Assembly (NCBI RefSeq): GCF_000971115.1
Contig: NZ_BBLV01000004.1
Span: 1-64,000, forward strand
DNA length: 64,000 nucleotides
Source of the DNA: Demequina gelatinilytica
GTDB taxonomy: Bacteria; Actinomycetota; Actinomycetes; Actinomycetales; Demequinaceae
Direction: 5' to 3'
Under the pieces are notes generated by a model, which was not told where the DNA came from, ran no database searches, and worked only from the letters and a program-made list of their open reading frames with translations. This document shows, in pieces, positions 21,673 to 50,544 of this stretch. The position numbers were made by a program, and so were the translations under genes. The first letter of the stretch is position 1. Each line of letters starts with the position of its first letter.

Positions 21673-21681
21673 CGCGAGAGG

Positions 21682-22046
21682 TGGAGATGCCGGGAATCGA
21701 ACCCGGGTCCGCATGTCCAAACCGAAGTCTTCTCCGGGCGCAGCCTGAAGAAGGTTTTCTCAGCCCCTCACCCACCATCAGGCAGGTGGTGAGCGGGCTC
21801 AGTCATCTAAGAGTCCCGCAGCCCCCGATGACGCAGGGCTGAAGCAAGTTCCCTAGTCGACGCCAGGATCCAGGTCGGGAACACCCCTGGGCTGACGGAC
21901 TTCATGGCGCTCGCTTAGGCAGCGAGGGCGAAGTCGGTGCGCTTGGAATCGGCACCTATAGGTTGCAGAGGTCGTTTACGAGATAACTCTGCGTTCTCGG
22001 CCCGCTTCCCTCCGGAAGTAAACACACGTCGAAACCGATCATCCCC
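21682..22046 (-). ncRNA. ssrA: Transfer-messenger RNA (tmRNA)
   Basis: The minus strand begins GGGGATGATCGGTTTCGAC, the conserved tmRNA 5' end, and ends with a tRNA-like T-arm (CCGGG-TTCGATT-CCCGG) and acceptor CATCTCC paired with GGGGATG; CCA is not encoded. The tag frame at 21956-21915 encodes GADSKRTDFALAA and then TAA, a typical actinobacterial degradation tag ending ALAA. With SmpB (27515-27988) it rescues stalled ribosomes. About 365 bases. Confidence 0.95.
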
Positions 22047-32767: not shown

Positions 32768-32807
32768 GGCGGCCATCGTAGGGGGTTCCTCCCGAAACAC
32801 GGCGTTC

Positions 32808-32825
32808 ACCTATCGGGCGTTAGGC
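32808..32825. promoter_or_regulatory. Cluster operator 1, before the amidohydrolase
   Basis: ACCTATCG-GG-CGTTAGGC, 14 of 16 arm bases matching the shared palindrome ACCTATCG-NN-CGATAGGT. It lies 30 bases before the amidohydrolase ATG and is preceded by GAAACACGGCGTT, similar to the context at 50476. Confidence 0.6.
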
Positions 32826-32855
32826 TCGTGGCGAGAACCGCTTCGGAAGGGAACC

Positions 32856-34127
32856 ATGTCACCCACGCGCCTCCCCGTCACCCCTGTCCGGCAGGGGTCC
32901 ATCCGCATCGTCGGCGCCACCGTGATCGACGGCACAGGGGCGGAACCCCGTACCGCGGACGTCGAGGTCGTCGACGGCAGGATCGTCGCGATCGGGGTCG
33001 GCCCCGCCGCCACGCGCGCGGAGGCCACGGTCGACGCCTCGGGGCTCTTCCTCACCGCGGGCCTCGTCGACACGCACGTCCACCTCACCATGCCGAACGA
33101 GTCCAACCCGGAGGCGGACCGGCTCAAGTTCATGGAGGAGCACGCGTTCGCGACCGCTGAGTCGATGCGGCTCACTGTGGAGGCCGGGGTCACCGCGGTA
33201 CGCGACCTCGCCGGTCTCACGCCGGGATACCGCCGCGCCGTCGAGGCCGGGCTCATCGCGGGCCCGCGCATGCACCTCGCGATCACGATGCTCTCCCCCA
33301 CCGGCGGCCACGCCGACCCGGTGCGCGCCAACCGCAGCCTTCCGGCCTACAGCGACTTCGAGCCCATCCCCTCGGTGGGCGTCGTCGACTCGGACGACGA
33401 GGTCGTCAAGGCGATCCGGACGCTCGTGCGCACCGGCGCCGACGTGGTGAAGATCTGCACCACCGGCGGCATCAGCACCCCCGAGGACAGCCCGGACGAC
33501 CTGGGGATCCCCGAACGCCAGGTGCGGCTCATGGTGGCCGAGCTCGCGCGCCGCGGCGGGCGTCCCATCGCCGCGCACGCGCAGGGGAACGAGGGCGCGC
33601 TCGCCGCGGTGCGCGGCGGCGTCACGAGCCTCGAGCACGGCTACGAGATGTCCGACGAGCTCATCGAGGAGATGCTCGCGCGCGGCACCGTGCTCGTCCC
33701 CACGCTCTCCACGCTGTCCCTGTCGCCGGACCCCGCGAAGAAGCCGCCGCAGGTGGTGGCGAAGAAGCTCGAGTGGCAGGTCCGTGGCCGCGACGCTGCG
33801 CGCCGCGCGATCGAGGCGGGCGTGCCCGTCGCCATGGGCACCGACGCGGGGATCCACCCGCACGGACGCAACGGCGCGGAGATGGGCCACTTGGTCGATG
33901 CCGGGATGACGCCTCTCCAGGCGCTTCACGCCTGCACGATTCAGGGCGCTCGGCTGCTGGGACTCGCCGACCATCTGGGCTCCGTGGAGGTCGGCAAGCT
34001 CGCCGACCTGGTGCTGTGGGACGTGGATCCGTTGTCGGCCCCGCACGTGCTGTCCGATGCGTCGCGCGCGAGGACCGTGCTTCAGGCCGGCCGCGCCGCG
34101 AAGGACCTCGACGGGCGGATCGGCTGA
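32856..34127 (+). CDS. Metal-dependent amidohydrolase (imidazolonepropionase-like)
   Basis: A 423-residue cytosolic hydrolase of the COG1228 amidohydrolase superfamily. Metal-binding features appear in order: DTHVHL (about residue 73-78), the KICTTGG strand with the carboxylated-lysine position, AHAQGNEG, SLEHGYEM, and MGTDAGIHPHG. Relatives cleave amides, lactams or dipeptides. The ATG at 32856 follows GGAAGGGAAC. Sharing an operator type with the guanidine/urea genes suggests it opens or trims a nitrogen-rich precursor; its product and substrate are not known. It converges on the MFS gene. Confidence 0.85.
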   Translation: MSPTRLPVTPVRQGSIRIVGATVIDGTGAEPRTADVEVVDGRIVAIGVGPAATRAEATVDASGLFLTAGLVDTHVHLTMPNESNPEADRLKFMEEHAFATAESMRLTVEAGVTAVRDLAGLTPGYRRAVEAGLIAGPRMHLAITMLSPTGGHADPVRANRSLPAYSDFEPIPSVGVVDSDDEVVKAIRTLVRTGADVVKICTTGGISTPEDSPDDLGIPERQVRLMVAELARRGGRPIAAHAQGNEGALAAVRGGVTSLEHGYEMSDELIEEMLARGTVLVPTLSTLSLSPDPAKKPPQVVAKKLEWQVRGRDAARRAIEAGVPVAMGTDAGIHPHGRNGAEMGHLVDAGMTPLQALHACTIQGARLLGLADHLGSVEVGKLADLVLWDVDPLSAPHVLSDASRARTVLQAGRAAKDLDGRIG

Positions 34128-34155
34128 CCGCTCCGCCGTGCGCCGGGGTCGGGTC

Positions 34156-35409
34156 TCAGGCGCCGGGCGGTGGGACGGACGGCTCGACGTCGGCCGTATG
34201 CGCGTCCACCGCGAGGCTCGCGGCGGCCTTGCGGGACGCCAGCCAGGCCACGGCCGCACCCACCGCTGACAGGGCGAACAGCGCCGCGGCCGTGAGCGGC
34301 AGGGACGCAAGCCCGCCCCCGTCCACCTGAGCCGCCGCAACGGCGGCACCGAGCGACGACCCGGTGAAGATCACGGACGAGTTCACAGCGACGAGCAGCT
34401 TGAGGTGCCTGCCGGCGTGACCGATGATGAGCGCCTGGAGCGGCGGGTTGATCGCCCACGAGCAGAAGCCCCACGCCAGCAGGAACACGGCCGCCTGCCA
34501 CGCGGCGTCCACGATCATGAGGCCCGCGACCGAGGCCGCCGCGGCCGCCGCGACGAGCACGAGCGCGCGGCCCGGGCCCACACGGTCGGCGATCGCGCCC
34601 AGCAGCGCGTTGCCCGCCAGCCCGGCGATCCCGTAGCACAGCAGCAGGAGCGACAGCGGGGTGCCCGTGGCGCCCACCGCGTCCGTGAGGAACGGCGAGA
34701 CGAAGGTGTTGAGGCCGCTCGTCGCGGCGCCCTCCATGGCCGCCGTGGCGAAGACGGCGCCGAGCGTGATCCACGCCCACATGCCGAGCGCGCCCGACGT
34801 GGTCCCTGCCGCGTGGCTCGCCTCCGCGTCGGCGACGAGCCCCGCCTGCCAGCGCGACGCGCGCAGCGCGACGAGCGCGACGACGACGAGCAGCACCGCC
34901 ACCGCGATGAACGAGGCCCGCGCGCCGATGAGGCCCGCGAGCGTGTTGCCCAGCGGCGCGCCGACGAGCGACGACACGACCATGCCGCCGAAGGAGATCG
35001 ACAGCGCGCGCGAACGTAGCGAGGGCGCGACGATCGAGCCGGCGTGGACGGTGCACATCGGCACCACCCCTGCGGCCGCGACCGCGTGGGCGATGCGGGC
35101 CGCCGCGAGCTGCTCGGTCGACCCTGCCGCCGCGACCCCGACCAGCGTCACCGCCTCGAGCGCGAGCGCGATGATGAGCACGGTGTACGGGCTGACCCTA
35201 CGCACCAGGATCGCGAGGGTCGGCGCAGCAGCGGCGTACGCGAGGCCGAACACCGCGTTGGAGCGTCCGACGTCCGCGATCGAGATCCCGGTCTCCTCGG
35301 AGAAGGTCGGGAGCACGCCCGGCACGAGCATGTTGCCGAGCGTCGCCGCGAACACGGCCGACGCGAGGATCCACAGCGTCGTGTGCACGCGACGGTCGAT
35401 GCCGCTCAC
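34156..35409 (-). CDS. MFS transporter
   Basis: A 417-residue major facilitator with twelve predicted helices and the loop RRVSPYTVLIIALALEA after helix 2 in place of the classical GxLaDRxGRR motif; the equivalent in the second half is LGAIADRVGPGRALVL. It belongs broadly to the drug/arabinose-efflux type. Start GTG at 35409 overlaps the stop of the cysteine hydrolase gene (GTGA). As the last gene of the importer-hydrolase operon it may export a product or excess intermediate. Direction of transport cannot be told from sequence. Confidence 0.85.
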   Translation of the reverse strand: MSGIDRRVHTTLWILASAVFAATLGNMLVPGVLPTFSEETGISIADVGRSNAVFGLAYAAAAPTLAILVRRVSPYTVLIIALALEAVTLVGVAAAGSTEQLAAARIAHAVAAAGVVPMCTVHAGSIVAPSLRSRALSISFGGMVVSSLVGAPLGNTLAGLIGARASFIAVAVLLVVVALVALRASRWQAGLVADAEASHAAGTTSGALGMWAWITLGAVFATAAMEGAATSGLNTFVSPFLTDAVGATGTPLSLLLLCYGIAGLAGNALLGAIADRVGPGRALVLVAAAAAASVAGLMIVDAAWQAAVFLLAWGFCSWAINPPLQALIIGHAGRHLKLLVAVNSSVIFTGSSLGAAVAAAQVDGGGLASLPLTAAALFALSAVGAAVAWLASRKAAASLAVDAHTADVEPSVPPPGA

Positions 35410-35996
35410 ACGCGCTCGACGGACTCGAGCCACTCCATCGTCTCGGCCGAGGTGACGAGCGACCGGCGCTGCATGTACTCGATCATGTCGAGCGCATCGT
35501 CGTGGGCCTGCTGCGAGGAGCCGTGCACCACATCGGTCACCACGTTGAGGAACAGGTCGCGCTGGTGGGCGTCGACCGCGGTGTAGAGGATGCAGATGTC
35601 AGTGAAGCCCCCGATGAGGATCACGGAGTCCGCCTTGTACGCGCGCAGGACGATGTCGAGCTGCGTGCCGAAGAACCCGGAGTAGCGGCGCTTGCGGATG
35701 TGGAACTCGTCGGGGGTCGGCTTGAGCCCGGACGCGAGCTCCGTGTACGGGCTGCCCTCGATGCAGTGCGGGCCCTCGGACCCGTCCATCTCGCGGCCCA
35801 TGTCGATGAGGTGGGGCTTGTGGACCTCCTGGATCCACACGACGGGGACGCCCTTCTCGCGGGCGAGGTCGACCATCGCGACCGCGCGGTCGCGCTGCGC
35901 GCGCACGTCGAAGCCGTCCTGCTGGCCGGGGCTGCCGTCGAGCGGTCCTCCCTGGAAGTCGACGACGACGAGGACGGGGTTGCCGTGGATGTTCAT
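35406..35996 (-). CDS. Isochorismatase-like cysteine hydrolase 1
   Basis: A 196-residue alpha/beta hydrolase of the isochorismatase-like family. The Asp-Lys-Cys triad is intact: Asp13 in VVVDFQ, Lys102 in RKRRYSGFFGT, Cys135 in GGFTDICILYT. Members that keep the cysteine usually hydrolyse small C-N bonds (nicotinamide, N-carbamoylsarcosine, biuret, triuret, guanylurea, ureidoacrylate). It shares about half its residues with its neighbour 17 bases upstream, including EVHKPxLIDxGRExDGxEGxHCxEG. With the downstream allophanate pathway, a ureide or guanyl compound is the likely substrate; which one is not decided by sequence. Confidence 0.88.
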   Translation of the reverse strand: MNIHGNPVLVVVDFQGGPLDGSPGQQDGFDVRAQRDRAVAMVDLAREKGVPVVWIQEVHKPHLIDMGREMDGSEGPHCIEGSPYTELASGLKPTPDEFHIRKRRYSGFFGTQLDIVLRAYKADSVILIGGFTDICILYTAVDAHQRDLFLNVVTDVVHGSSQQAHDDALDMIEYMQRRSLVTSAETMEWLESVERV

Positions 35997-36013
35997 GTGG
36001 TGCTCCTGTCCTG

Positions 36014-36682
36014 TCAGCGCTCGAGGTCCATGGCGTCCGCCCCCGGCATGGGGGCGTCCGTCAGCGAGTCGAGCCACGCGTGCGCGGCGTCGGCGGTCAC
36101 GAGCGAGTCGCGCTGGAGGTACCTCATGGCGCGCAGCGCCGCATCGTGCGCCTTGTCGGATGACCCGCCCACCAGGTCGCTGATGGTGCGGAACCGGTAG
36201 TCGAGCTGATGGGCGTCGACGGCGGTGTAGTGGATGCAGACGTCCGTGAGGCCGCCGATCATGACGATCGTGTCCGTCCCGTAGCCCTTGAGCACGATGT
36301 CGAGCTCGGTGCCGTAGAAGCCGGAGTAGCGGCGCTTCTGGACCAGGTACTCGTGGGGAAGCGGCTCGAGCCCCGGGTAGAGCTCGGTGGTCTCCCAACC
36401 CTCGACGCAGTGGGCGCCCTCGGCACCATCGAGCTCGCGTCCGATGTCGATGAGCGACGGCTTGTGGACCTCCTGGAGGAAGACCACCGGCCGCCCCTTG
36501 GCGCGGAACGCATTCACGAGGTCGATCGCGCGCTGGCGTCGCGCCTGCTGCCCGGTCATGCCGCCGAGCGTCGACACGTGCGGAGCCGCGCCTCCGCCCT
36601 GGATGTCGACGACGAGAAGGGTGACGTTGCCGACGGGGTTCAGCTCGTCGTGGGGGGACCAGTCGGTCACCTGGAGCGGCAT
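36014..36682 (-). CDS. Isochorismatase-like cysteine hydrolase 2
   Basis: A 222-residue paralogue of the next gene with a 12-residue N-terminal and a 20-residue C-terminal extension. Triad: Asp26 (VVDIQ), Lys116 (QKRRYSGFYGT), Cys149 (GGLTDVCIHYT). The short loop after the first strand differs (GGGAAPHVSTLGG against GGPLDGSPGQQ), so the two probably act on different substrates or form a heteromer. The ATG at 36682 follows AAAGGACCCCCC. It lies 16 bases after the ABC permease stop and belongs to the importer operon. Confidence 0.88.
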   Translation of the reverse strand: MPLQVTDWSPHDELNPVGNVTLLVVDIQGGGAAPHVSTLGGMTGQQARRQRAIDLVNAFRAKGRPVVFLQEVHKPSLIDIGRELDGAEGAHCVEGWETTELYPGLEPLPHEYLVQKRRYSGFYGTELDIVLKGYGTDTIVMIGGLTDVCIHYTAVDAHQLDYRFRTISDLVGGSSDKAHDAALRAMRYLQRDSLVTADAAHAWLDSLTDAPMPGADAMDLER

Positions 36683-36698
36683 GGGGGGTCCTTTCGGT

Positions 36699-37697
36699 TC
36701 AGGAGAGACGGACGCGGGGGTCGACCGCGGCGAGCGCGACGTCGACGAGGGTGTTGAGGACCACGTAGACCGCGCCGAGGATGAGGCACACGGCCGCGAT
36801 CGCGGGGAAGTCGCCGACGCCGATCGCGGAGGACAGGTACGAGCCGAGCCCGTTCCACGAGAACACCTGCTCCACCACCACCAGGCTCGACACCATGAAC
36901 CCCGCCTGCACCGCGAGGAGCGACAGCGCGGGCGACGAGGCGTTGCGCAGCGCATGCCGCCGGACGATGGTGCCCTCGCGCTCGCCGAGCGCGCGCGCGG
37001 TCCTCGCCCACGGCGACGACAGGGACGAGGAGATGCCGTCGGCGAGCACGCGGGCGAGCGCCACCCCCGCACCGACCGAGGCCGCGAGCGCCGGGAGGAG
37101 CAGGTGCTGGATCGCGTCCCACGTGTAGGTGGGGCTCGCGTGCAGGATGCCGTCGATCACGTAGAAGCCGGTCCCGTCGTCGTAGGGGCCGTACGAGGAG
37201 CGGCCCGCTGCCGGCAGCATGCCGCCGAGCCACTTGTAGAACACGAGCACCGAGAGCATCGCGATGAGGAACGACGGCGCGGAGGCGGCGGAGAAGAACA
37301 CGAACCTCAGCACCGCGCCGATGCGGCCGGGCCGCGAGTAGAGGGATGCGAGCGACACCCCGATGAGCACCGTGAGGGTGAGCGCCCAGCCCGCGAGCTC
37401 GAGGGTGGCCGGCAGCCGGGTCGACAGCTCGTCGGAGATGGGGCGCTTGGATGCGAGCGAGACGCCGAAGTCCCCCTGCACGGCTCCGCCCACGAAGCTC
37501 GCGAACTGGACTGGGATCGGATCGTCGAGGCCGAGCTCCTCACGCGCGGCCTCGACCGCCTCGACGCTGGCGTTGACGCCCACGTACGTGCGCACCGGAT
37601 CGGAGTCGGCGACCTTGCCGAGCGTGAAGACCAGCAGCGTGAGGAAGAACAGCACCACCACGAGCGAGCCGAGGCGCTTGCCGACGAAGCTCAGCAT
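36699..37697 (-). CDS. ABC importer permease, DppB/OppB type
   Basis: A 332-residue permease with six helices, starting with the typical short N-terminal helix (RLGSLVVVLFFLTLLVFTL). The EAA loop appears as ALGEREGTIVRRHALRNASSPALSLL, and VVEQVFSWNGLGSYL is the conserved end of this family. A central insertion (GMLPAAGRSSYGPYDDGTG) lies outside the membrane. It works with the DppC-type subunit encoded two bases upstream and with the fused ATPase. Confidence 0.92.
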   Translation of the reverse strand: MLSFVGKRLGSLVVVLFFLTLLVFTLGKVADSDPVRTYVGVNASVEAVEAAREELGLDDPIPVQFASFVGGAVQGDFGVSLASKRPISDELSTRLPATLELAGWALTLTVLIGVSLASLYSRPGRIGAVLRFVFFSAASAPSFLIAMLSVLVFYKWLGGMLPAAGRSSYGPYDDGTGFYVIDGILHASPTYTWDAIQHLLLPALAASVGAGVALARVLADGISSSLSSPWARTARALGEREGTIVRRHALRNASSPALSLLAVQAGFMVSSLVVVEQVFSWNGLGSYLSSAIGVGDFPAIAAVCLILGAVYVVLNTLVDVALAAVDPRVRLS

Positions 37698-37699
37698 GG

Positions 37700-38578
37700 T
37701 CACACACCCGTCCGCCGGAGCACCACGCGCAGGGCGTCGCCGGCATAGTTGAAGACGAAGGCCAGCAGGCCGATCGTGACGCTGGGCAGCACCGCGATCC
37801 ACCATGCGTTGAGGAAGTACTTCATGCCGTCCGAGGCCATGCGGCCCAGCTCCGGGGCGGGGGCGGGGGTGCCGAGCCCGATGAACGACAGCGCGGCGAG
37901 CGTCATGACGACCGCACCGATGTCGAGGCTCGCGGTCACCACCACGGTCGGCATGACCGCCGGCACCACGTGGCGCCACAGCAGCCTCCACCCACGGACC
38001 CCCGACACCCGGGCGGCCTGGACGTGCGGAAGGGCGACGACGCGGCGCACCTCGCCGCGCACCAGGCGTGCGTAGAGCGGCCACCACACCACGATGATGC
38101 CGATCATCGCGGACCCGAGCGACTGGCCGATCGCGGCCGCGACCGCCATTGCGATGATCATCGCGGGAAACGCCAGGAACAGGTCGGTGAAGCGCATGAG
38201 CGCGCTGTCGAGCCAGCCTCCCCGGAAGCCGGCGAGCACCCCGATGAGCGTGCCGAGCGCCGCGGACACGGCGGTGACGACCACGGCGGCGAGGAGGCTT
38301 CGCTGCATCCCGGCGACGAGCCGGGTCGCCATGTCCATCCCGAGCACGTCGGTGCCGAGCACATGACCGGACGAGAGCGGCGGCGCGAGCTGGGGCCCCG
38401 ACGGGATGATCGGGCTGTACGGCATGAGCGTGGGGCCGATGAGCGCGAGGAGGACGATGGCGGCCATCGCGATGAGCGAGGCCTTCTCCCCCGTGCCGAG
38501 GGCGGACCATGCACTGTCGCGACGCGACGCCTGCGCCGCCTCGACACGCTCGAGCGTGCCTCTACGCGAGAACAGCAT
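37700..38578 (-). CDS. ABC importer permease, DppC/OppC type
   Basis: A 292-residue permease. N-terminal oppC-type cytosolic segment, then LGTDVLGMDMATRLVAGMQRSL, the hallmark of DppC proteins, six helices, and the EAA loop with AARVSGVRGWRLLWRHVVPAV. SFIGLGTPAPAPELG is typical. Its ATG at 38578 lies within the end of the ATPase gene (17-base overlap), so translation is coupled. Confidence 0.93.
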   Translation of the reverse strand: MLFSRRGTLERVEAAQASRRDSAWSALGTGEKASLIAMAAIVLLALIGPTLMPYSPIIPSGPQLAPPLSSGHVLGTDVLGMDMATRLVAGMQRSLLAAVVVTAVSAALGTLIGVLAGFRGGWLDSALMRFTDLFLAFPAMIIAMAVAAAIGQSLGSAMIGIIVVWWPLYARLVRGEVRRVVALPHVQAARVSGVRGWRLLWRHVVPAVMPTVVVTASLDIGAVVMTLAALSFIGLGTPAPAPELGRMASDGMKYFLNAWWIAVLPSVTIGLLAFVFNYAGDALRVVLRRTGV

Positions 38579-40280
38579 CGACGAGCCTCCGTCCGTAATC
38601 CGTGGTGATGTCCTGAGCGAGCCGCTCGGCGGGCACCGTCTCGACGATCTCGCCGCCGGTCATCACCAGCACGCGGTCTGCGATGAGCCGCGCCGCGGCG
38701 AGGTCGTGGGTGACGAACATGATCGAGATGCCCAGCGAGTGACGCAGCAGGTTGATGAGGTTGAGGACCGAGCAGGCGACGGACACGTCGAGCGCGCTCG
38801 TCGGCTCGTCGCACAGGAGCACCGACGGCGGCACCACCACGGCGCGGGCGATCGCGACGCGCTGCTGCTGACCGCCGGAGAGCTGGGTGGGCCGCGCGGC
38901 CAGCACCGACGCGTCGAGACCGACGAGCTCGAGCGTGCTCAGCGCCATCGCGCGCATCTGCGCGCGGGACAGCCCGCGACCGGTGATCGTGTGCTCGATG
39001 CGCTCGCGCAGGAGCTCCTCGACGGTGCGCCACGGGGTCAGCGAGGCTCCCGCATCCTGGAAGACCACCTGGGTGCCCTCGCCCGCCACGCCCTGGGCGT
39101 CGACCGTGCCGGTGTCGGCGGTCTCGATGCCGCCTGCGATCCTCAGGAGCGTGGACTTGCCCGAGCCGGACTCCCCGACGAGCGCGACCGCCTCGCGGTA
39201 GCCGATCTCGAATGAGACATCCTTGAGGACGTGGTTGTCGACCCTGCGGCCGCGGGCGCGGGTCGAGTACGTCTTGTTCACCTCGTTGACCGCGAGCGAC
39301 GCGCGCGTGACATGCTCCACCAGCCGCACCTCGGGGTGCCCGCTCGCGGCACCGACCGCGGCGGTGGGCCCGGTGAACGCCTCCCAGGTGAGCGCGCCAT
39401 CCGACCAGGCGCCGGTGACGTCGAGCGCGGGACGGTCGAGACCGCGCAGCACGTCCTCCATCGAGGCCACGACCGCGCGCTCGGGCGCTCCCACCGGACG
39501 CGACCGATCCGTCTCGAGGGTGATCCGGGAGGCCATGAGGCGCTGCGTGTAGGGGTCGCTGGGCCGTCCGATGACATCCTCGGCGGGACCCGCCTCGACC
39601 ACGACGCCGTCCTTCATCACCGCGATGTCGTCGCACATGTGGCGCGCGACGCCGAGGTCGTGGGTCACGAAGAGCACGGCGCAGCCCGCGTCCTCGATGG
39701 ACTCGCGCAGGACGCCGAGGACCTCGGCCTGCACCGAGACGTCGAGCGCGGTGGTGGGCTCGTCCGCGATGAGCAGGCGGGGCCCAGGAGCGAGGGCGAG
39801 CGCGATCATCACGCGCTGGCGCATCCCGCCCGACAGCTGATGGGGGTACTTCTTGAGGACCTCGCCCGCGCGACGGATCTGCACGCGCTCGAGCGCGGCG
39901 ACGGACGCCTCGGCGGATCCGGTGTACCGGTTGAGCATCCGCCCGATGGTCATGGTCGGGTCGAGCGAGCGCATGGGGTCCTGGAACACGGACGTCACGT
40001 CGCTGCCCCGGACCTGGGTCCACGCCGGGTCGGTGATGGGCGCGAGCTCGCGCCCGGCGATCACGATGCTCCCGGTCGCCTCCGCGACGCCGTCCGCGGG
40101 GATGATGCCCTGGACGGCGGCGCCGATGGTCGACTTCCCCGATCCCGACTCGCCGACCAGGCCCAGGCATCGGCCGGCGTCGATCGTGAGGCTGACGTCG
40201 GACACCGCCGTGACCACGCGTCCGCGACCGCGGTACGTGACGGTGAGATCGGAGACCGTGAGGACGGTCGTGTCGGCCAT
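38562..40280 (-). CDS. Fused DppD-DppF ABC importer ATPase
   Basis: A 572-residue protein with two complete ATPase domains that in E. coli are separate. Domain 1 (about 1-260): Walker A GESGSGKST, signature LSGGMRQR, Walker B LLIADEPTTALD. Domain 2 (about 325-572): GESGSGKST, LSGGQQQR, VLLCDEPTSALD. In relatives such fusions serve opine, nickel or dipeptide importers. ATG at 40280. A 15-base-pair hairpin stands between it and the binding protein gene, so its expression is probably lower than that of the binding protein. Confidence 0.93.
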   Translation of the reverse strand: MADTTVLTVSDLTVTYRGRGRVVTAVSDVSLTIDAGRCLGLVGESGSGKSTIGAAVQGIIPADGVAEATGSIVIAGRELAPITDPAWTQVRGSDVTSVFQDPMRSLDPTMTIGRMLNRYTGSAEASVAALERVQIRRAGEVLKKYPHQLSGGMRQRVMIALALAPGPRLLIADEPTTALDVSVQAEVLGVLRESIEDAGCAVLFVTHDLGVARHMCDDIAVMKDGVVVEAGPAEDVIGRPSDPYTQRLMASRITLETDRSRPVGAPERAVVASMEDVLRGLDRPALDVTGAWSDGALTWEAFTGPTAAVGAASGHPEVRLVEHVTRASLAVNEVNKTYSTRARGRRVDNHVLKDVSFEIGYREAVALVGESGSGKSTLLRIAGGIETADTGTVDAQGVAGEGTQVVFQDAGASLTPWRTVEELLRERIEHTITGRGLSRAQMRAMALSTLELVGLDASVLAARPTQLSGGQQQRVAIARAVVVPPSVLLCDEPTSALDVSVACSVLNLINLLRHSLGISIMFVTHDLAAARLIADRVLVMTGGEIVETVPAERLAQDITTDYGRRLVDAVLA

Positions 40281-40305
40281 GAGGCCTCTCCTTCTCCGGG
40301 GCGGG

Positions 40306-40344
40306 CCTCGTGGCGGCGGCGGGGGGAGAGCCGCCGCCACGAGG
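40306..40344 (-). terminator. Perfect 15-bp intra-operon hairpin
   Basis: CCTCGTGGCGGCGGC (40306-40320) pairs exactly with GCCGCCGCCACGAGG (40330-40344), 9-base loop, between the binding protein stop and the ATPase start. It may partly terminate transcription or protect the binding-protein mRNA. Confidence 0.65.
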
Positions 40345-40365
40345 GACCGCGTAGGGGGATGGGCC

Positions 40366-41949: not shown

Positions 41950-41979
41950 TGCTGGCTCCTTCGAAGAGGGTTCGGGGGG

Positions 41980-41995
41980 CCGTTCCGTGGAACGG
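41980..41995. promoter_or_regulatory. Second palindrome before the binding protein gene
   Basis: CCGTTCC-GT-GGAACGG, arms of seven, between the cluster operator and the GTG at 41949. It is not found before the other cluster promoters and would lie in the 5' leader. Confidence 0.4.
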
Positions 41996-42003
41996 TACCG
42001 CGA

Positions 42004-42021
42004 ACCTATCGGTCAATAGTT
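42004..42021. promoter_or_regulatory. Cluster operator 2, before the ABC importer operon
   Basis: ACCTATCG-GT-CAATAGTT, 14 of 16 arm bases matching the shared palindrome. Read toward the importer genes the context TGTAACTATTGACCGATAGG closely resembles TGTACCTATCGACCGAAAGG at operator 3. Confidence 0.7.
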
Positions 42022-42045
42022 ACATTGGATCGCGGGCAGTGTTAC
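42019..42045 (-). promoter_or_regulatory. Possible GlnR box
   Basis: Minus-strand GTAAC occurs twice exactly 22 bases apart, the spacing of the a-sites in actinobacterial GlnR boxes. The intervening b-site (CGCGA) is poor, so this is a half match. It overlaps the allophanate hydrolase stop codon. Confidence 0.3.
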
Positions 42046-43796: not shown

Positions 43797-44473
43797 GCCC
43801 GACCCTCCGGGTCCGTCACGATCGCACGCAGCGGGGTGGGGTTGAAGTCGTTGCACGGATTGTTGACCTGCGGGCAGTTCGAGATGATCACCAGGACGTC
43901 ACGCTCGGCGCGCAGCGCGACACGCTTGCCGGGCGCCGACATGCCGTCGACGATGCCCAGGGTGCCGTCGGCCTCCACGGGCACGTTCATGAACCAGTTG
44001 ATGTTCGACACCAGGTCCCGCGGCCCGAGCCCGTGCCGCGCTCCCTCGAGCAGGAAGTTCTCCCGGCATGCGTGGTGGAACATCGTGTGATGCCCGTAGC
44101 GGAGCGTGTTCGACTCCTTCGAGCACGCGCCGCCGATGGTGTCCTGGCGTTCGACCTCGTTGCCGACGACGGTCATGAGCGCCCGACCCTCGTCCGACAG
44201 CAGCACCGAGCCCTCGACCAGGTAGGCGTTGCGCTGCGCCGCGATCGTGGCCTGCGCGCTGTAGCGCTCCTCGTGGTCGACCGCGTCGTAGATGAGGCAG
44301 TCGCCCGACTGGTTGCCGCCCACGTCGACCAGCGTCAGCACATGCCCGGCCCGCACCACGGCGGACCAGCCCGCGCGCGGCGCGATCTCGTGGTCGAGCA
44401 CCGCGGCGCCGGCGACGTACGCCTCGCTGCGGTCGAAGTAGCCGGCCTCGTAGGTGGCCCACGTGACGGTCAT
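43793..44473 (-). CDS. Urea amidolyase-associated protein 2 / carboxyguanidine deiminase subunit
   Basis: A 226-residue DUF1989-type protein. Conserved parts are GNQSGDCLIYDA, the cysteine-containing TIGGACSKESNTLRYGHHTMFHHACRENFL, and NINWFMNVPVEADGTLGI, with likely metal ligands among the cysteines and histidines. This family, long labelled urea-amidolyase-associated, has been shown elsewhere to form with its partner the deiminase CgdAB that turns carboxyguanidine into allophanate. Assignment as the UAAP2 subunit follows gene order. Four-base overlaps tie it to both neighbours. Confidence 0.85.
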   Translation of the reverse strand: MTVTWATYEAGYFDRSEAYVAGAAVLDHEIAPRAGWSAVVRAGHVLTLVDVGGNQSGDCLIYDAVDHEERYSAQATIAAQRNAYLVEGSVLLSDEGRALMTVVGNEVERQDTIGGACSKESNTLRYGHHTMFHHACRENFLLEGARHGLGPRDLVSNINWFMNVPVEADGTLGIVDGMSAPGKRVALRAERDVLVIISNCPQVNNPCNDFNPTPLRAIVTDPEGRA

Positions 44474-45333
44474 CGGATCCCCCTCGCGAGAAGGTGCTGC
44501 TGGGTGTTGAGGTAGGCGCGGGCGCGCTCGGGCGTCGCGGTCCACCACGGGTCCGCGGGTGACGATGCGGCGGCAGCCCACGCGTGGACGCGCAGCGGGC
44601 CCGTCCGGTAGCGGTCGTCGGGATCGAGCGGATGCGCCGCGTTGGCGATCAGGACCGTGAGGGGCACCTCGGCGACGAGCTCGACGGCGGCCCCGGCACC
44701 GGCGCCGCCGGTCCACTCGAGCGCGCCGTCGGCCCCCACGCGGACGCCCTTGAAGAAGGAGACGCTCGGCGGGATGTCGCGCGGCGCGAGACCCTCCTTC
44801 GCCGCGGCGAGCCGCAGGAGCTCGCGACCCGCCGGCGTGGCCGAGTGCGCCTCGCCTGCGCCGTAGCGCGCGTGGTTGCTCGCGAGCGTGGTGACGCCGC
44901 AGAACGCGTCGTGCCGGCCGTCGGCGGCGTCCGCCACGACCGTCGCCAGGACACGCCCGTCGCCGGACAGGAGCGGGTGCCCGGCGCCCAGGTAGGCCTG
45001 CCACGGGATCTTCTGGGTATCCGCGACGTTAAGGCGCTCGGACCGCTGGAGGGCGCTCACGAGCACCACATGCGCGCACGCATCGCCGGTGACGTCCTCG
45101 AGTCGGATGCGGGAGCCCCGCGCCAGGGTCGCGTGGGCGTAGCCCGGCCCCGCGACGGTCTCGGCCCAGACCAGATCCCCCGGGTCGACCCCGTCGGGCA
45201 CATGCGGCGAGGACGACGGCGGGAGGTAGGGCATCGCCTCGACAGCGGTGCCTGCGCGCCCGCGCGCATCGTCACGCGCCTGTGCGGGCGTCGCGGTGCT
45301 CGCGCGCCGTCCGGCCCCCAGATCGTTGCTCAT
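44470..45333 (-). CDS. Urea amidolyase-associated protein 1 / carboxyguanidine deiminase subunit
   Basis: A 287-residue DUF1989-type partner of the next gene. The first 35 residues are a polar extension; the core starts around PYLPPSSSPHVP. Family segments are VTGDACAHVVLVSAL, SERLNVADTQKIPWQAYLGAGHPLLSGDGRVLATVV, CGVTTLASNHARYG and SVSFFKGVRVGADGALEW; the C terminus ERARAYLNTQQHLLARG resembles the EYLNTQ tail of UAAP1 proteins. ATG at 45333 is seven bases from operator 3, giving a very short leader. Divergent from the TetR gene. Confidence 0.85.
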   Translation of the reverse strand: MSNDLGAGRRASTATPAQARDDARGRAGTAVEAMPYLPPSSSPHVPDGVDPGDLVWAETVAGPGYAHATLARGSRIRLEDVTGDACAHVVLVSALQRSERLNVADTQKIPWQAYLGAGHPLLSGDGRVLATVVADAADGRHDAFCGVTTLASNHARYGAGEAHSATPAGRELLRLAAAKEGLAPRDIPPSVSFFKGVRVGADGALEWTGGAGAGAAVELVAEVPLTVLIANAAHPLDPDDRYRTGPLRVHAWAAAASSPADPWWTATPERARAYLNTQQHLLARGIR

Positions 45334-45339
45334 CTCGCC

Positions 45340-45357
45340 ACCTTTCGGTCGATAGGT
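45340..45357. promoter_or_regulatory. Cluster operator 3, between UAAP1 and tetR
   Basis: ACCTTTCG-GT-CGATAGGT, 15 of 16 arm bases matching the shared palindrome. It lies between divergent UAAP1 and the TetR gene, so it could serve both. TACTGT at 45436-45441 is a fair -10 for the TetR gene. Confidence 0.75.
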
Positions 45358-45456
45358 ACAGCGCGAGTGTAGAACGCCTTTGTTTCGGCTCGATTTCGCG
45401 TGCGAGGCGCCGCTGGCGCCGCGTGCGGCAGGCGCTACTGTGGGGGTCGATCAGCC

Positions 45457-46095
45457 ATGAACCGCACCGATTCCGCACCAGCGAGCACCGACGCGCCGCG
45501 TCGGTCGCGCCCGCACGGCAAGGACCCGGTGGGGCGCGACCGGATCCTCGAGGCGGCCGCCCGGCTCTTCGTCGAGCAGGGCTACGCCGCGACCACCACG
45601 CGGCAGATCTCCGCGGCGGTCGACATCAAGCAGCCGTCGCTGTATTACCACTTCCCCAACAAGGCCGCGATGCTCAACGAGCTGCTCATCGACACCGCGC
45701 GGCCCTCGACGGAGAAGGCGCGCGAGCTGCTCGCCGACACGGACTCGGATCCGCTCGCGCAGCTGCTCACGCTCATCCGGTTCGACGTGCACCTGCTCGC
45801 CTCCGGGCCGTCGAACATCGGAGCGCTCTACCTGCTTCCAGAGACCAGCGAGCCGCTGTTCGGCTCCTTCCAGGCGATGCGCCAGGAGCTGGTCGGCGCG
45901 TACGGCGCGCTGCTGCGGCGCGCGCTCGCAGCCGGCCAGGCCGCCGTGGACGACCCCGCCGAGACGGCCGCGCTGCTGTTCTCGCTCGTCGAGGGCGTGA
46001 TCCTCAGGCGAGCCGACGATCCCCGGCTCGACGCGGACGCCGTCGCGACCGGCATCGAGAAGGCCACGCTGCGCATCCTCGCCGCCGATCGCTGA
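45457..46095 (+). CDS. TetR regulator of the guanidine/urea cluster
   Basis: A 212-residue repressor with helix-turn-helix TTRQISAAVDIKQPSLYYHFPNKAAML (about residues 48-74). It is the only regulator inside the cluster and stands next to the best-centred copy of the shared palindrome, so it is the natural candidate to bind all four sites. Its inducer is unknown; guanidine, urea, allophanate or an upstream ureide are candidates. No N-terminal ambiguity: ATG at 45457, though the first 25 residues are a polar tail. Confidence 0.88.
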   Translation: MNRTDSAPASTDAPRRSRPHGKDPVGRDRILEAAARLFVEQGYAATTTRQISAAVDIKQPSLYYHFPNKAAMLNELLIDTARPSTEKARELLADTDSDPLAQLLTLIRFDVHLLASGPSNIGALYLLPETSEPLFGSFQAMRQELVGAYGALLRRALAAGQAAVDDPAETAALLFSLVEGVILRRADDPRLDADAVATGIEKATLRILAADR

Positions 46096-46102
46096 GCGGG
46101 TC

Positions 46103-46930
46103 TCAGTCGACCCGCACCGCCTCACCCCGCATCGCCGCGGCCCACGGCCACCAGTGCGGGTCGTGCCCGGGCCACACCTCGAGACCCTCGCGGCGCCACC
46201 GCGCGAGCGTCTCGACCGCCTCCTGCGCCGCCCGCTCCGCGCCGGGGACAGGCACCACGGAGCAGCGGCGCTGGGTCTCGAGGTTCTCGATGAGGTCGGC
46301 GGCGTCGCACGCGAGCACGATCGACCGGCCCGAGACCAGGTCCACCCGGAACGACTGGTGACCGGGCGTGTGGCCATGGGTGTCGAGCGCCGTGAGCCCG
46401 GGGGCGAGGACGGTCTCGCCATCGATCGCACGGAGGTCCTCCCCCGCGTCGAGCACGTCTGAGGGGAGCACCACATCGCGGATCCCCGCGCCGGAGGCGA
46501 GCCACTCGAGCTCACGCCTCTGCAGGATCACCGGCACCCCGTCCGGGACGTGCGCGATGCCTCCCGTGTGGTCGAGGTGCGCATGGCTGATCGCGCAGGC
46601 CGCCAGGTCCGACCACTCGAAGCCCGCTCCGGCGACCGCGTCGAGGAGCGGGTCCCCCAGGGGCACCACAGCCGTGTAGCTGTCGTAGTTGAACACCTCG
46701 CGACGACGCTCGGGATCGCGCACGACGGCGACGTTGAAGCCCGTGTCGAGCAGCACCCACCCGTCCGTGTACTCGACGGCCACCGCCGTCACCGGCTCGA
46801 GCAGATGCCTCAGGGGGTCGCCGCCGTCGATCGACATCGACTCGCGCATCGGCTCGTAGCCCACGACGAACGCGTGGAGGGCGAGCGGCTTCCCGCCCAG
46901 GGCGAGCGGCCCTTCGAATGTCGCCGCCAT
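46103..46930 (-). CDS. MBL-fold hydrolase, N-acyl homoserine lactonase-like
   Basis: A 275-residue metallo-beta-lactamase-fold enzyme. The zinc site SHAHLDHTGGI (HxHxDH) is near residue 113-120, followed by the HGHTPGHQSF motif and ACDAADLIENL. The organisation resembles AHL lactonases (AiiA/AttM group), which open lactone rings. Here it directly follows the carboxylase gene with one base between, so it more likely acts on a cyclic or ester-like nitrogen compound than in quorum quenching. No signal peptide. The assignment of substrate is inference only. Confidence 0.8.
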   Translation of the reverse strand: MAATFEGPLALGGKPLALHAFVVGYEPMRESMSIDGGDPLRHLLEPVTAVAVEYTDGWVLLDTGFNVAVVRDPERRREVFNYDSYTAVVPLGDPLLDAVAGAGFEWSDLAACAISHAHLDHTGGIAHVPDGVPVILQRRELEWLASGAGIRDVVLPSDVLDAGEDLRAIDGETVLAPGLTALDTHGHTPGHQSFRVDLVSGRSIVLACDAADLIENLETQRRCSVVPVPGAERAAQEAVETLARWRREGLEVWPGHDPHWWPWAAAMRGEAVRVD

Positions 46931-46931
46931 G

Positions 46932-49900
46932 TCAGACCCCAGTCCTGAGCGACACGATCGCGTCGCCCGGGGCGACGGTCGCGCCCGCCGGCGCGAGCAC
47001 CGCGTCGACGGTTCCGGAATGCGCCGCGATCACCTTGGTCTCCATCTTCATCGCCTCCACCACCGCGACCGTATGACCGGCCTCGATCCTCTGCCCCTCC
47101 TCGACCAGGACCTTCCAGACGTTGGCGGCGAAAGGAGCCTCGACGCCCACGCAGCCGTCGGCGAGCGCCGCGGGGGCCACGGGGTCCGCGGGCTCGATCG
47201 CGCGATCGAACTCGCCGCTCGCCTCCCATCGGTCGCGCTCCGCGGCGAACGCGGCACGCTGGCGCCCCCGGAACTCCGCGATGGACGCGGCGTTGTCGTC
47301 GAGGAAGCGCACGTGGTCGGCCAGGGAGAGCGTGCCGTCCTCGATCTCGGGGCGCCAGAGCCCGGCCGCGAAGTCGGCACGCAGCCGCAGGAGCTCCTCC
47401 GCGGAGACCTCGTACCAGGAGATCCGGTCGAACCAGTCGAGCAGCCACGGCCGTGAGCCGTCGACGGCGCGGTCCTCGCCGGCGAAGGACGCCCAGCGGT
47501 CCCAGACCTGCGTCGTGCGTCCCACGAACTGGTAGCCGCCCGGGCCCTCCATCCCGTAGATGCACAGGTAGGCGCCCCCGATGCCCACGGAATTCTCCGC
47601 CGTCCACGTGCGCGCCGGGTTGTACTTGGTGGTGACCAGCCGGTGGCGGGGATCGAGCGGCGTCGCGACGGGCGCGCCCAGATAGACGTCGCCGAGCCCG
47701 AGCACAAGGTACTCGGCGTCGAACAGGGTCGCGTAGACGTCCTCGACGCCGTCGAGCCCGTTGACCCGGCGGATGAACTCGATGTTCCACGGGTTCCACG
47801 GGGCGTCGTCGCGCACGCCCGCCTCGTAGCGCGCGATCGCCTCGCGCGTGGCCGGGTCGTCCCACGACAACGGAAGGCGCACACGCCGGCTCGGGACCAC
47901 CAGGTCGGACGCCTCCGCGGTGTCCGCCGCCAGGGCGACGATGCGCTCGAGCACCTCGGGCGTGATGCGCGACGGGTCGTCGAAGGTCACCTGGAGGGAG
48001 CGGATCCCCGGCGTGAGATCGCGGATCCCGGCCGGCGCATCGTCCCGCAGCCGGCCCTGCAGGACGTGCACGCGCGCACGGAGCAGCAGGTCGAGCTCCT
48101 GCGGGCCGAGCTCGACCAGCAGGCTGTCGTCGCTCTGGCGGCGGACCACCACGCCGTCGCGGTCGGCCAGCACCCCACGCGGGGCACCCGCCGGCTCGGG
48201 GATCGCGGGGGCGAGCCGCACGAAGCGGACCTGGTCGCCGGGCGCGAGCTGGCCGAGCTTCCAGCGCTCGGCCTTCGCCACGGTGACCGGGGTGACGAAG
48301 CCGCCGAGGCTCGGGCCGTCCGGGCCGAGCAGGACCGGGGTGTCGCCCGTGAAGTCCATCCCGCCCACGGAGTAGGGCGTGTCGTGGATATTCGACGGGT
48401 GCAGCCCCGCCTCGCCGCCGTCGGTGCGCGCCCACTCCGGCTTGGGCCCCACGAGCCGCACGCCGGTCCGGTCCGAGTTGAAGTGCACCGTGTAGCTCGC
48501 CTCGAGGATGTCCGCGACGTCCTCCTCGGTGAAGAAGTCGGGCGCGCTGTGCGGGCCGTCGAGGACGCCGATCTCCCACGCGGAGCCGATCACGGGTCGG
48601 GCGGGAGGCTCCGCGTCGTCTGCCTGGGCCGCGGACGCCGTGCCGATGGGGAGCTCGTCACCCGCGAGGAGCGCGCGACCCGCGTGACCTCCGAAGCGTC
48701 CCAGCGTGAAGGTGGCACGCGAGCCGAGGTGCTCGGGCACATCCACCCCGCCCGCGACGAGGACGTAGACGCGCAGCCCCGACGCGACGCGGCCGATCTC
48801 CAGCGTCGACCCGGCGGGCACCTCGACGCGCCGCCACTGCTCGACGGCGGCACCGTCGAGCGTGACCTGCGCGGGCGCCCCGGTCACGCACACCTGGGTC
48901 GCGGCGCCGAAGGTGAGCGCGGGCCCGGTGACCGTGCACTCGAGCCCGGCCGTCCCCGGAGCGTTGCCCAGCACGCGGTTGCCCAGCGCGAAGCTGCGGT
49001 CGTCCATCGGACCCGACGGCGGGACGCCGATGTGCCACAGACCCGTCCGGCCCGGCCCCTCCTGGACGGTGGTGAGGAAGCCGGGATGCTCGACTCGGAT
49101 CCCGCCGGGCTCGGGGACGATCTGCGAGCCGAGGCTTGCGGTCGTGTGCGCACCGCCTGCCACGACGTCGGAGGCCGCGATCGCGCGCAGCAGCGGAAGG
49201 TTGGTGTGGACGCCGTCGATTCGCGTGTGCGAGAGCGCGTCGGCGTGGCGGGCCCACGCCTCCTCGCGAGTCGCGCCGTCGGTGACGACCTTGGCGAGCA
49301 TCGGATCGAAGCGCATCCCCACCTCGGTGCCGGCCTGGATCCAGTGGTCGACGCGGACGTCGGCCGGCAGATGGACGGCGGTCACCGTGCCAGGGCTCGG
49401 GCGGAAGCCCGCGGCCGCGTCCTCGGCGTAGATGCGGCTCTCCACCGCCGCGCCCGTGACGGGGACCGCGCCGGACGCCGCGTAGGGAGCGAGGAACGCC
49501 GGGTCGCCGGCGGCAAGGCGCAGCATCCATCCCACCAGGTCGACGCCCGTGACCGCCTCCGTGACAGGGTGCTCGACCTGCAGCCGCGTGTTGATCTCCA
49601 AGAAGGACGCATCTCCCGTGACGGCGTCCACGACGAACTCGACCGTGCCGGCGCTGCGGTAGGCCGCGCTCGCGCCGAGCGCGCGCGCCGTCGTGTGCAG
49701 GCGGGCACGCAGCTCGGGTGCGAGGTCGAACGCGGGCGCCTCCTCCACCACCTTCTGATTGCGGCGCTGCAGCGTGCAGTCGCGATCACCGAGCGTCACC
49801 ACGAGCCCGTCGCCGTCGCCGAAGATCTGGACCTCGACGTGCCGCGCGTGCTCGATATAGCGCTCGGCGAAGACGCCGCCGCCCACGGTGGACGCGACAC

Positions 49901-50468
49901 GCGCCACGGAGGCGTAGGCCGCCTCGACCTCGTCGAGGGCACGCACCACGAGCATGCCCTTGCCGCCGCCGCCGGCCGCCGCCTTGACGATGACGGGCAG
50001 GCCGATGCGCGCGATCTCCTCGCGGGCGTGGTCCGCATCGCGCAGCTCCGCGGTCGCCTCCGAGGTCGGCACACCCGCGGCGATGGCCCTCTCGCGGGCC
50101 GCCTGCTTGTCGCCGAACAGCGCGATCTGGTCCGGGCGCGGCCCGACGAACACGAGCCCGGCCTCCTCGACCGCGCGGGCGAAGCCGGCATTCTCCGACA
50201 GGTAGCCGTAGCCGGGGTGGATCGCCCATGCGCCGCGGTCGCGCGCGATCGCGATCAGCTGCTCGATGTCGAGGTAGGGGTCGAGCTCGCCGCGGCGCTC
50301 GAGGCGGACCACCTCGTCGGCGGCCTCGATGTGGAGGCTGCCGCGGTCGTCGTCGGTGTACACGCCGATGGTGCGGCCACCCCACGCCTTGACTGAGCGG
50401 AAGATCCGGGTCGCGATCTCCGCACGGTTGGCCACCAGCACCGCGGGCGGGGTGTTCTGCGTCGTCAT
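46932..50468 (-). CDS. Biotin-dependent urea/guanidine carboxylase
   Basis: A 1178-residue multidomain carboxylase. Biotin carboxylase domain at residues 1-450 (VKAAAGGGGKGM ATP loop, LEINTRLQVEHPVTE), carboxyltransferase domain made of KipA-like (HPGFLTTVQEGPGRTG onward) and KipI-like parts, and a biotinyl domain ending in VEAMKMETK with biotin Lys1141. It lacks the fused allophanate hydrolase of yeast urea amidolyase; that enzyme is separate at 42042-43796. The substrate loop GGEAGLHPSNIHD is of the bacterial type; together with the UAAP pair this favours guanidine over urea as the physiological substrate, per published work on such enzymes. Promoter carries operator 4. Confidence 0.92.
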   Translation of the reverse strand: MTTQNTPPAVLVANRAEIATRIFRSVKAWGGRTIGVYTDDDRGSLHIEAADEVVRLERRGELDPYLDIEQLIAIARDRGAWAIHPGYGYLSENAGFARAVEEAGLVFVGPRPDQIALFGDKQAARERAIAAGVPTSEATAELRDADHAREEIARIGLPVIVKAAAGGGGKGMLVVRALDEVEAAYASVARVASTVGGGVFAERYIEHARHVEVQIFGDGDGLVVTLGDRDCTLQRRNQKVVEEAPAFDLAPELRARLHTTARALGASAAYRSAGTVEFVVDAVTGDASFLEINTRLQVEHPVTEAVTGVDLVGWMLRLAAGDPAFLAPYAASGAVPVTGAAVESRIYAEDAAAGFRPSPGTVTAVHLPADVRVDHWIQAGTEVGMRFDPMLAKVVTDGATREEAWARHADALSHTRIDGVHTNLPLLRAIAASDVVAGGAHTTASLGSQIVPEPGGIRVEHPGFLTTVQEGPGRTGLWHIGVPPSGPMDDRSFALGNRVLGNAPGTAGLECTVTGPALTFGAATQVCVTGAPAQVTLDGAAVEQWRRVEVPAGSTLEIGRVASGLRVYVLVAGGVDVPEHLGSRATFTLGRFGGHAGRALLAGDELPIGTASAAQADDAEPPARPVIGSAWEIGVLDGPHSAPDFFTEEDVADILEASYTVHFNSDRTGVRLVGPKPEWARTDGGEAGLHPSNIHDTPYSVGGMDFTGDTPVLLGPDGPSLGGFVTPVTVAKAERWKLGQLAPGDQVRFVRLAPAIPEPAGAPRGVLADRDGVVVRRQSDDSLLVELGPQELDLLLRARVHVLQGRLRDDAPAGIRDLTPGIRSLQVTFDDPSRITPEVLERIVALAADTAEASDLVVPSRRVRLPLSWDDPATREAIARYEAGVRDDAPWNPWNIEFIRRVNGLDGVEDVYATLFDAEYLVLGLGDVYLGAPVATPLDPRHRLVTTKYNPARTWTAENSVGIGGAYLCIYGMEGPGGYQFVGRTTQVWDRWASFAGEDRAVDGSRPWLLDWFDRISWYEVSAEELLRLRADFAAGLWRPEIEDGTLSLADHVRFLDDNAASIAEFRGRQRAAFAAERDRWEASGEFDRAIEPADPVAPAALADGCVGVEAPFAANVWKVLVEEGQRIEAGHTVAVVEAMKMETKVIAAHSGTVDAVLAPAGATVAPGDAIVSLRTGV

Positions 50469-50475
50469 GGCGCGA

Positions 50476-50493
50476 CTCTATCGAACGATAGGT
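50476..50493. promoter_or_regulatory. Cluster operator 4, before the carboxylase gene
   Basis: CTCTATCG-AA-CGATAGGT, 14 of 16 arm bases matching the shared palindrome, with a perfect inner CTATCG/CGATAG core, 8 bases before the ATG at 50468. Minus-strand context GTAACACCGCGTTTACC overlaps a likely -10. Confidence 0.75.
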
Positions 50494-50544
50494 AAACGCG
50501 GTGTTACATCTTCCCGGCAGCGTGCCCGCGCCCGGAGCAAGCAC

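Follow-up and report, generated by a model that had tools for sequence, protein, structure and literature searches.

Gene cluster and palindromes

The DNA analysed here (the window) comprises the first 64,000 nucleotides of contig NZ_BBLV01000004.1 of Demequina gelatinilytica. It holds a cluster of genes for a carboxylase, the proteins UAAP1 and UAAP2, an allophanate hydrolase, an ATP-binding cassette (ABC) importer and an amidohydrolase, together with a gene for a TetR-family regulator (Table 1). A first-pass annotation had proposed that one palindrome controls four promoters of this cluster and that the local TetR is its probable binder. Uniqueness of the palindrome in the genome, conservation of its positions, co-occurrence of TetR and UAAP1 and the match of its core to the AmtR box lend this proposal strong, though indirect, support, and we regard the four palindromes as probable operators of an AmtR-type TetR repressor (probability about 0.85, which covers the repressor and its operators, effector excluded).

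The palindrome searched for was ACCTATCG-NN-CGATAGGT, with up to 3 mismatches allowed in the window and genome searches. As the annotation had claimed, the window contained matches at 32808, 42004, 45340 and 50476 (2, 2, 1 and 2 mismatches, respectively) and no fifth copy. Every site keeps 14–15 of the 16 consensus arm bases, and 6, 6, 7 and 6 of the 8 arm positions, respectively, are self-paired. Shuffled windows had a mean of 0.15 matches (maximum 1). A scan of the genome had been suggested as a check; across its 3,228,371 bases (32 contigs) the same four palindromes were found and no others, showing that the motif is not scattered genome-wide, and the backwards control pattern gave 0 matches in the whole 3.23 Mb. 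The chance of four random matches all falling inside 17.7 kb is approximately 7e-7. The gap between operator and start codon is 30 bp for the amidohydrolase (ATG 32856), 54 bp for the substrate-binding protein (GTG 41949), 6 bp for UAAP1 (ATG 45333) and 7 bp for the carboxylase (ATG 50468).

Table 1. Features of the D. gelatinilytica cluster (window coordinates)
Feature	Position	Strand	Basis
AmtR-type TetR-family repressor (predicted)	45457..46095	+	best PDB matches are AmtR chains; TetR_N domain; all-helical model
Operator 1 (putative), amidohydrolase promoter, ACCTATCGGGCGTTAGGC	32808..32825	+	pattern search of window and genome
Operator 2 (putative), importer operon promoter	42004..42021	-	pattern search of window and genome
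Operator 3 (putative), UAAP1 promoter, divergent from tetR	45340..45357	-	pattern search of window and genome
Operator 4 (putative), carboxylase promoter	50476..50493	-	pattern search of window and genome
GlnR-like box GAAAC-n6-GTAAC, upstream of importer operon	42041..42056	-	one of 12 exact genome matches; score 9–10/10 in 10/10 genomes, own included
GlnR-like box GAAAT-n6-GAAAC, upstream of UAAP1	45382..45397	-	score 9–10/10 in 10/10 genomes, own included
Weaker GlnR-like box GTAAC-n6-TTTAC; last two bases are first two of operator 4	50492..50507	-	8/10 matches here in 7/10 genomes
Weaker GlnR-like box GAAAC-n6-TTCAC, overlapping operator 1	32794..32809	+	score 8 in 2/9 genomes only
-10-like TAGGCT at operator 1 right arm	32821..32826	+	TANNNT there in 9/9 genomes
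-10-like TAGGTT at operator 2 right arm	42003..42008	-	TANNNT there in 10/10 genomes
-10-like TACACT just upstream of operator 3	45366..45371	-	TANNNT in 10/10 genomes
-10-like TAGAGT at operator 4 right arm, 6 nt before ATG	50475..50480	-	TANNNT in 10/10 genomes
Predicted guanidine carboxylase (family model urea carboxylase), D705 + D927 signature	46932..50468	-	NCBIfam above cut-off; alignment
Metallo-beta-lactamase-fold hydrolase	46103..46930	-	profile match
UAAP1, taken as carboxyguanidine deiminase subunit	44470..45333	-	TIGR03425 above cut-off
UAAP2, taken as carboxyguanidine deiminase subunit; start approximate	43793..44461	-	TIGR03424 above cut-off
Allophanate hydrolase; longest frame, start approximate	42042..43856	-	TIGR02713 above cut-off
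Family 5 substrate-binding protein	40366..41949	-	profile match
Double ABC ATPase of importer; start approximate	38562..40280	-	profile match
Importer permease	37700..38578	-	profile match
Importer permease	36699..37697	-	profile match
Isochorismatase-family hydrolase 1	36014..36682	-	profile match
Isochorismatase-family hydrolase 2	35406..35999	-	profile match
Major facilitator superfamily (MFS) transporter	34156..35433	-	profile match
Amidohydrolase-family protein	32856..34127	+	profile match

The TetR protein

The tetR gene indeed lies inside the cluster, between the carboxylase side and UAAP1. The six best PDB chains matched its product with 89–98 bits over about residues 9–208; the next-best structure scored 52 bits and the next relative in its own genome 36.8 bits. 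Chains 5e57, 5mqq and 6gy3 carry the AmtR label, and 5dxz, 5dy1 and 5dy0, labelled only as TetR family, are nearly identical in sequence to 5mqq. We take 5e57 to be from Mycobacterium smegmatis and the other five, 5mqq included, from Corynebacterium glutamicum. Similarity to C. glutamicum AmtR was near full-length (E about 1e-24 to 1e-26), and the AlphaFold2 model consisted entirely of helices (mean pLDDT, the predicted local distance difference test, 92.5). Judged by these scores, the protein is of the AmtR type, being closer to AmtR than to other TetR proteins. The AmtR box has been given as tttCTATN6AtAGat/aA in the available text of PMC2723105, and its core, CTAT-N6-ATAG, is exact at sites 42004 and 50476.

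Conservation in Demequina relatives

Relatives were sampled in 47 family genomes, of which 44 belong to Demequina; both counts include the window's own genome. TetR was present in 11 of the 47 (E 1e-30 or better); within the 44 Demequina genomes, exactly these 11 also had UAAP1. With up to 2 mismatches the palindrome had 33 matches in the 44 genomes (backwards control 1). Ten of the eleven TetR-bearing genomes hold 29 of these inside their clusters; the other four lie elsewhere, one each in G010, G019, G021 and G043.

All ten genomes (own included, also in the counts that follow) keep the operators of the importer promoter (2 mismatches each), the UAAP1 promoter (1–2) and the carboxylase promoter (2–3). 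The amidohydrolase-promoter operator was kept in all nine genomes with an amidohydrolase in the stretch (2–4 mismatches); in G031 this gene was not seen within the stretch read. Three relatives keep the operator positions though their repressor is only 60–64% identical. In the eleventh genome (G011), diverged operators with 4 mismatches stand before the carboxylase and before UAAP1, and the TetR identity is only 40–43%. Most cluster genes of G010 (L042, L043) match piecewise in different frames; this genome is listed as 50% complete, and the fragmentation looks like sequencing error rather than decay.

GlnR-type boxes and promoter anatomy

The annotation had further described an upstream context, AACACSGCG-TTYACC, shared by the four sites. 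It is exact at 32808 and 50476 but not at 42004 or 45340, where GAAAC-n6-GTAAC and GAAAT-n6-GAAAC, respectively, are found, both further upstream. We no longer treat it as an element in its own right: the shared context is probably better read as a GlnR-type activator box, a second element that adjoins or overlaps the operator. The GlnR box of M. smegmatis is described, in the available part of PMC3662644, as Gn2AC-n6-GnAACA with the core AC-n9-AC. The D. gelatinilytica genome contains a GlnR gene (PF21695, 129.3 bits, above cut-off) and 12 exact copies of GWAAC-n6-GWAAC, compared with 1 for the backwards control, including copies before glnA, before an amtB lying immediately ahead of the PII gene (glnA and amtB were identified by eye) and in the importer promoter. 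One of the 12 (L070) presumably resembles 16S rRNA sequence; this match looks like chance, and 12 is therefore no count of GlnR targets. At the carboxylase promoter, the three genomes without the tabulated box have their best GlnR-like box (8/10) ten bases further upstream.

In the importer, carboxylase and amidohydrolase promoters a TANNNT hexamer begins at operator base fourteen in 29 of 29 cases, and in all 10 UAAP1 promoters it lies 13–15 bp upstream of the operator. With its hexamer so close to the ATG, the carboxylase mRNA may be leaderless. Within 20 bp of the GlnR-type boxes of glnA and amtB no TANNNT was found, so that the argument from box-to-hexamer spacing is limited to the cluster.

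Occurrence in the Actinomycetes

The class survey comprised 394 genomes (AmtR-type at E 1e-14, UAAP1 at E 1e-20), the best few first-look candidates per genome being scored. AmtR-type proteins occurred in 55 genomes, UAAP1 in 41 and both in 36 (Fisher 1e-31, ignoring phylogeny). From the 54 other genomes with an AmtR-type gene, 39 stretches around it were read, one per genome. UAAP1 was also within 31 of these, and 28 contained CTRTC-N4-GAYAG, in 44 copies altogether, some of which are perfect TTCTGTCG-NN-CGACAGAA palindromes located between the AmtR-type gene and UAAP1.

The named loci were the best 80 of 586, picked by UAAP1 similarity and hence not independent. An AmtR-type protein (at least 60 bits) was encoded in 76 of the 80 and at least one CTRTC-N4-GAYAG was present in 70; the total of 85 copies compares with 2.55 in two-base-block shuffles. 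The arms of these 85 operators covary (G..C 72, A..T 8, mixed 5), and in one locus examined the operator stands 20 bp before a membrane permease frame. The loci without an AmtR-type protein were L214, L244 and L245, with stretches under 11 kb, and the full-length L203. A GlnR-type box of at least 9 was found within 80 bp on either side of 51 of the 82 operators in loci L183–L259, versus 1.5% of base-shuffled stretches. The AmtR-type gene, the cluster, the CTRTC-N4-GAYAG operator and GlnR-type boxes are thus often together in Actinomycetes.

A probable guanidine-type pathway

The carboxylase, UAAP1, UAAP2 and allophanate hydrolase each scored above the NCBIfam cut-offs. UAAP1 and UAAP2 are presumably CgdA and CgdB. 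Guanidine and urea carboxylases are reported to be split by an Asp at Kluyveromyces lactis position 1330, with the Asp at 1584 conserved besides (PMC11410670, 2024, available text); the Asp/Asn contrast is also stated in the part available of a 2025 review (PMC12186494). D705 and D927 of the window carboxylase align to positions 1330 and 1584, respectively, and K. lactis itself, the sole urea-type comparator, has Asn at 1330. Asp occupies this position in all 41 carboxylases from ten Demequina relatives and 31 class loci, and in all 76 readable carboxylases of the 80 named loci. Urea as the carboxylase substrate is disfavoured by D705. What had been annotated as a guanidine/urea cluster thus appears to resolve to a pathway of the guanidine type (D705, D927), and the urea half of that name is dropped. 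For the guanylurea suggested in the same annotation there is nothing beyond the two isochorismatase-family hydrolases (35406–36682), which had no curated family match above cut-off; the names guanylurea hydrolase and biuret hydrolase were rejected for them, the best models being under the curated cut-offs.

A guanidine riboswitch was considered as the control of the cluster and rejected on the Rfam searches. In the window cluster there was no Rfam match above gathering score and no guanidine family even at E 5; no Rfam guanidine riboswitch was found in 40 stretches centred on UAAP1 (about 3.8 kb each, window's own included) or in six 20 kb named loci. The positive controls, Escherichia coli gdx and one riboswitch elsewhere in the own genome, were found. 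The latter is a guanidine-III riboswitch (L265:1477–1542; contig 29, 120976–121041) at about 76 kb from UAAP1, directly followed by a small multidrug resistance (SMR) exporter whose best model is SugE, under the SugE cut-off. Since a guanidine-III riboswitch precedes the exporter and none was found at the cluster, guanidine export in this genome seems to be under RNA control and degradation under the proteins AmtR and GlnR. Among the 394 class genomes, 175 had guanidine-III matches; of the 36 with both AmtR-type and UAAP1, 25 did, and in the 16 of these 25 with a listed location the riboswitch is on a different contig or at least about 76 kb away.

Conserved acidic residues

Acidic residues were counted in 111 cluster-linked AmtR-type proteins (51 once close copies are dropped), leaving out rows under 55 bits or 100 residues, the long-branch rows L178 and L211, and the outgroups. 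D110 was Asp in 111 of 111, position 129 held Glu 107 times and Asp 4 times, and E179 was Glu in all 108 proteins with a residue there. Chain 5e57 agrees with D110, E129 and E179; chain 5dxz has E, I and M. Seven AmtR-type proteins had no UAAP1 in their stretch, and six of them keep all three acids: three come from genomes with UAAP1 elsewhere (G228, G195 and G429), and three (G189, G378 and G424) from genomes without a UAAP1 match. The latter three argue against a strict link between the acids and guanidine, as the acids do not strictly track the cluster. The three acids may suit a guanidinium cation; a structural role is possible too.

In a FastTree tree of 124 rows, the nearest partner of C. 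glutamicum AmtR is a G422 protein, and the pair lies near the cluster-linked proteins. We guess G422 to be a Corynebacterium. The fork is open and the branches are long, so that the descent of the Corynebacterium AmtR is only a lead.

Proposed mechanism and alternatives

In the mechanism that we infer from the sequences, covering binding by TetR, repression, activation by GlnR, effector and induction, the AmtR-type TetR would sit on the four operators and repress the amidohydrolase, importer, UAAP1 and carboxylase promoters. GlnR-type boxes beside or overlapping the operators would add activation under nitrogen shortage, and full promoter activity would require both nitrogen scarcity and a repressor that has left its operator. 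Most simply, release would follow when the repressor binds guanidine or a pathway intermediate.

Several observations weigh against this scheme. The AmtR core is exact at just two of the four sites, with one mismatch at 32808 (TTAG) and at 45340 (CTTT). Recognition-helix residues common to TetR and AmtR are presumably widespread in the TetR family and so are weak evidence. The tetR start (45457) stands 99 bp from operator 3, leaving autoregulation doubtful. The GlnR-type box is weaker (8/10) at the carboxylase, and at the amidohydrolase 7 of 9 genomes score no higher than shuffles. In the class survey, five genomes had UAAP1 without an AmtR-type match, with a strong UAAP1 in two (G159 and G238), and 19 had an AmtR-type protein without UAAP1; the full-length locus L203 shows neither an AmtR-type gene nor a carboxylase. 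Neither urea nor amino acids released AmtR in M. smegmatis (PMC4222082, available text), where competition between AmtR and GlnR is the published model (PMC10704036, available text).

As a tentative proposal, AmtR-type repressors outside Corynebacterium could be guanidine receptors that hold guanidinium by D110, E129 and E179 of their effector domain and then release the operators of guanidine degradation clusters, a protein counterpart in Actinomycetes of the guanidine riboswitches; the Corynebacterium master nitrogen regulator would descend from them, with two of the acids lost. Conserved acids together with guanidine-type clusters in which no riboswitch was detected make a guanidine-sensing repressor a testable idea. 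No paper was found that joins AmtR with guanidine, or guanidine with a transcriptional repressor and carboxyguanidine, in a search that covered little of the subscription literature.

It is also conceivable, although we consider it doubtful, that the same repressor has no ligand, expression being governed solely by how much repressor is present and by its competition with GlnR; a model of this kind, involving an antisense RNA, has been put forward for M. smegmatis. The GlnR-type boxes that overlap or adjoin the operators, the competitive binding published in PMC10704036, the reported antisense transcript of amtR and the lack of effect of urea and amino acids on binding would all fit. The available text of PMC4222082, however, does not list guanidine as an effector, and the (near-)invariance of D110, E129 and E179 in the 111 linked proteins asks for a reason, of which a structural one is possible.

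Release of the same repressor from the same operators by adenylylated PII (GlnK), as in C. glutamicum, is unlikely; the cluster would then report general nitrogen status and not its substrate. There is one PII gene in the genome, and PII binds and releases AmtR in C. glutamicum (PMC4617892, available text). Against this, C. glutamicum AmtR has Ile and Met where the linked proteins have E129 and E179, and the operators are confined to one cluster with no global regulon. M. smegmatis AmtR reportedly does not interact with PII.

Binding of the palindrome by another regulator, with the TetR as a bystander, is very improbable in view of the identical distribution of TetR and UAAP1 (one set of 11 among 44 genomes), the fit of the core to the AmtR box and the joint occurrence of operator and AmtR-type gene in many class and named loci. 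That the sites lack function and arose by chance or duplication is hardly credible, given 0.15 matches expected per window and positions kept in relatives, three of them with a repressor only 60–64% identical.

Comparison with known systems

The repressor-operator scheme preferred here belongs to a control system that is already known; what is added is this member with its local regulon of four promoters, the reading of the pathway as guanidine-type, and the conserved acids. According to the available text of PMC4222082, M. smegmatis AmtR (MSMEG_4300; operon msmeg_2184–2189) binds upstream of msmeg_2184 and acts as a repressor of the homologous genes, secondary to GlnR; AmtR there stands over a permease, a 'urea carboxylase', two unknown frames and an amidase, a set co-occurring in ten Actinobacteria. 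Competition of AmtR and GlnR over urea metabolism in this species is cited in PMC5137332 and PMC10704036. Demequina would share the arrangement of an AmtR-type repressor over a 'urea carboxylase' gene set. In Demequina, unlike in M. smegmatis, the repressor gene is inside the cluster and four promoters have a site, including those of an ABC importer operon with two isochorismatase-type hydrolases and of an amidohydrolase. The Demequina carboxylase bears the guanidine signature. Petridis 2016 is said to describe competitive binding of AmtR and GlnR in urea metabolism and an M. smegmatis AmtR operator CTGTC-N4-GACAG, from which the Demequina palindrome, with the core CTATC, differs.

With C. glutamicum AmtR the window protein shares its near full-length similarity and the CTAT-N6-ATAG box. 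The C. glutamicum protein, in contrast, is described in the text available as a global nitrogen repressor of about 35 genes that is released by PII, and Ile and Met occupy its positions corresponding to E129 and E179. The riboswitch-controlled operons described for Raoultella, Klebsiella and Vreelandella, again as far as the available text goes, resemble the Demequina cluster in carboxylase, CgdAB-type pair, allophanate hydrolase and ABC importer, but at the Demequina cluster no guanidine riboswitch was found. What seems to be new is the presence of these repressors on guanidine-type clusters without detected guanidine riboswitches, with three conserved acids of which two are lost in Corynebacterium AmtR. 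The cluster and its Actinomycetes relatives point to a single candidate family, for which operators, a promoter logic and three possible ligand residues can be named. They also raise the question whether the M. smegmatis AmtR 'urea' operon is perhaps a guanidine operon, which would fit the non-release by urea.

Other observations

The metallo-beta-lactamase-fold gene between carboxylase and tetR was also present in 8 of 10 Demequina relatives and in L144, and the paired isochorismatase-family hydrolases of the importer operon (35406–36682) in 8 of 10 relatives. In class family f12 (L163, L164, L165, L167–L171 and L174) the carboxylase match spans the carboxyltransferase half only (window residues about 420–1100), and the biotin carboxylase and biotin carrier parts were not matched in these stretches; L162 has separate matches to these two parts nearby. 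A tmRNA gene is located at window positions 21679–22046 on the minus strand.

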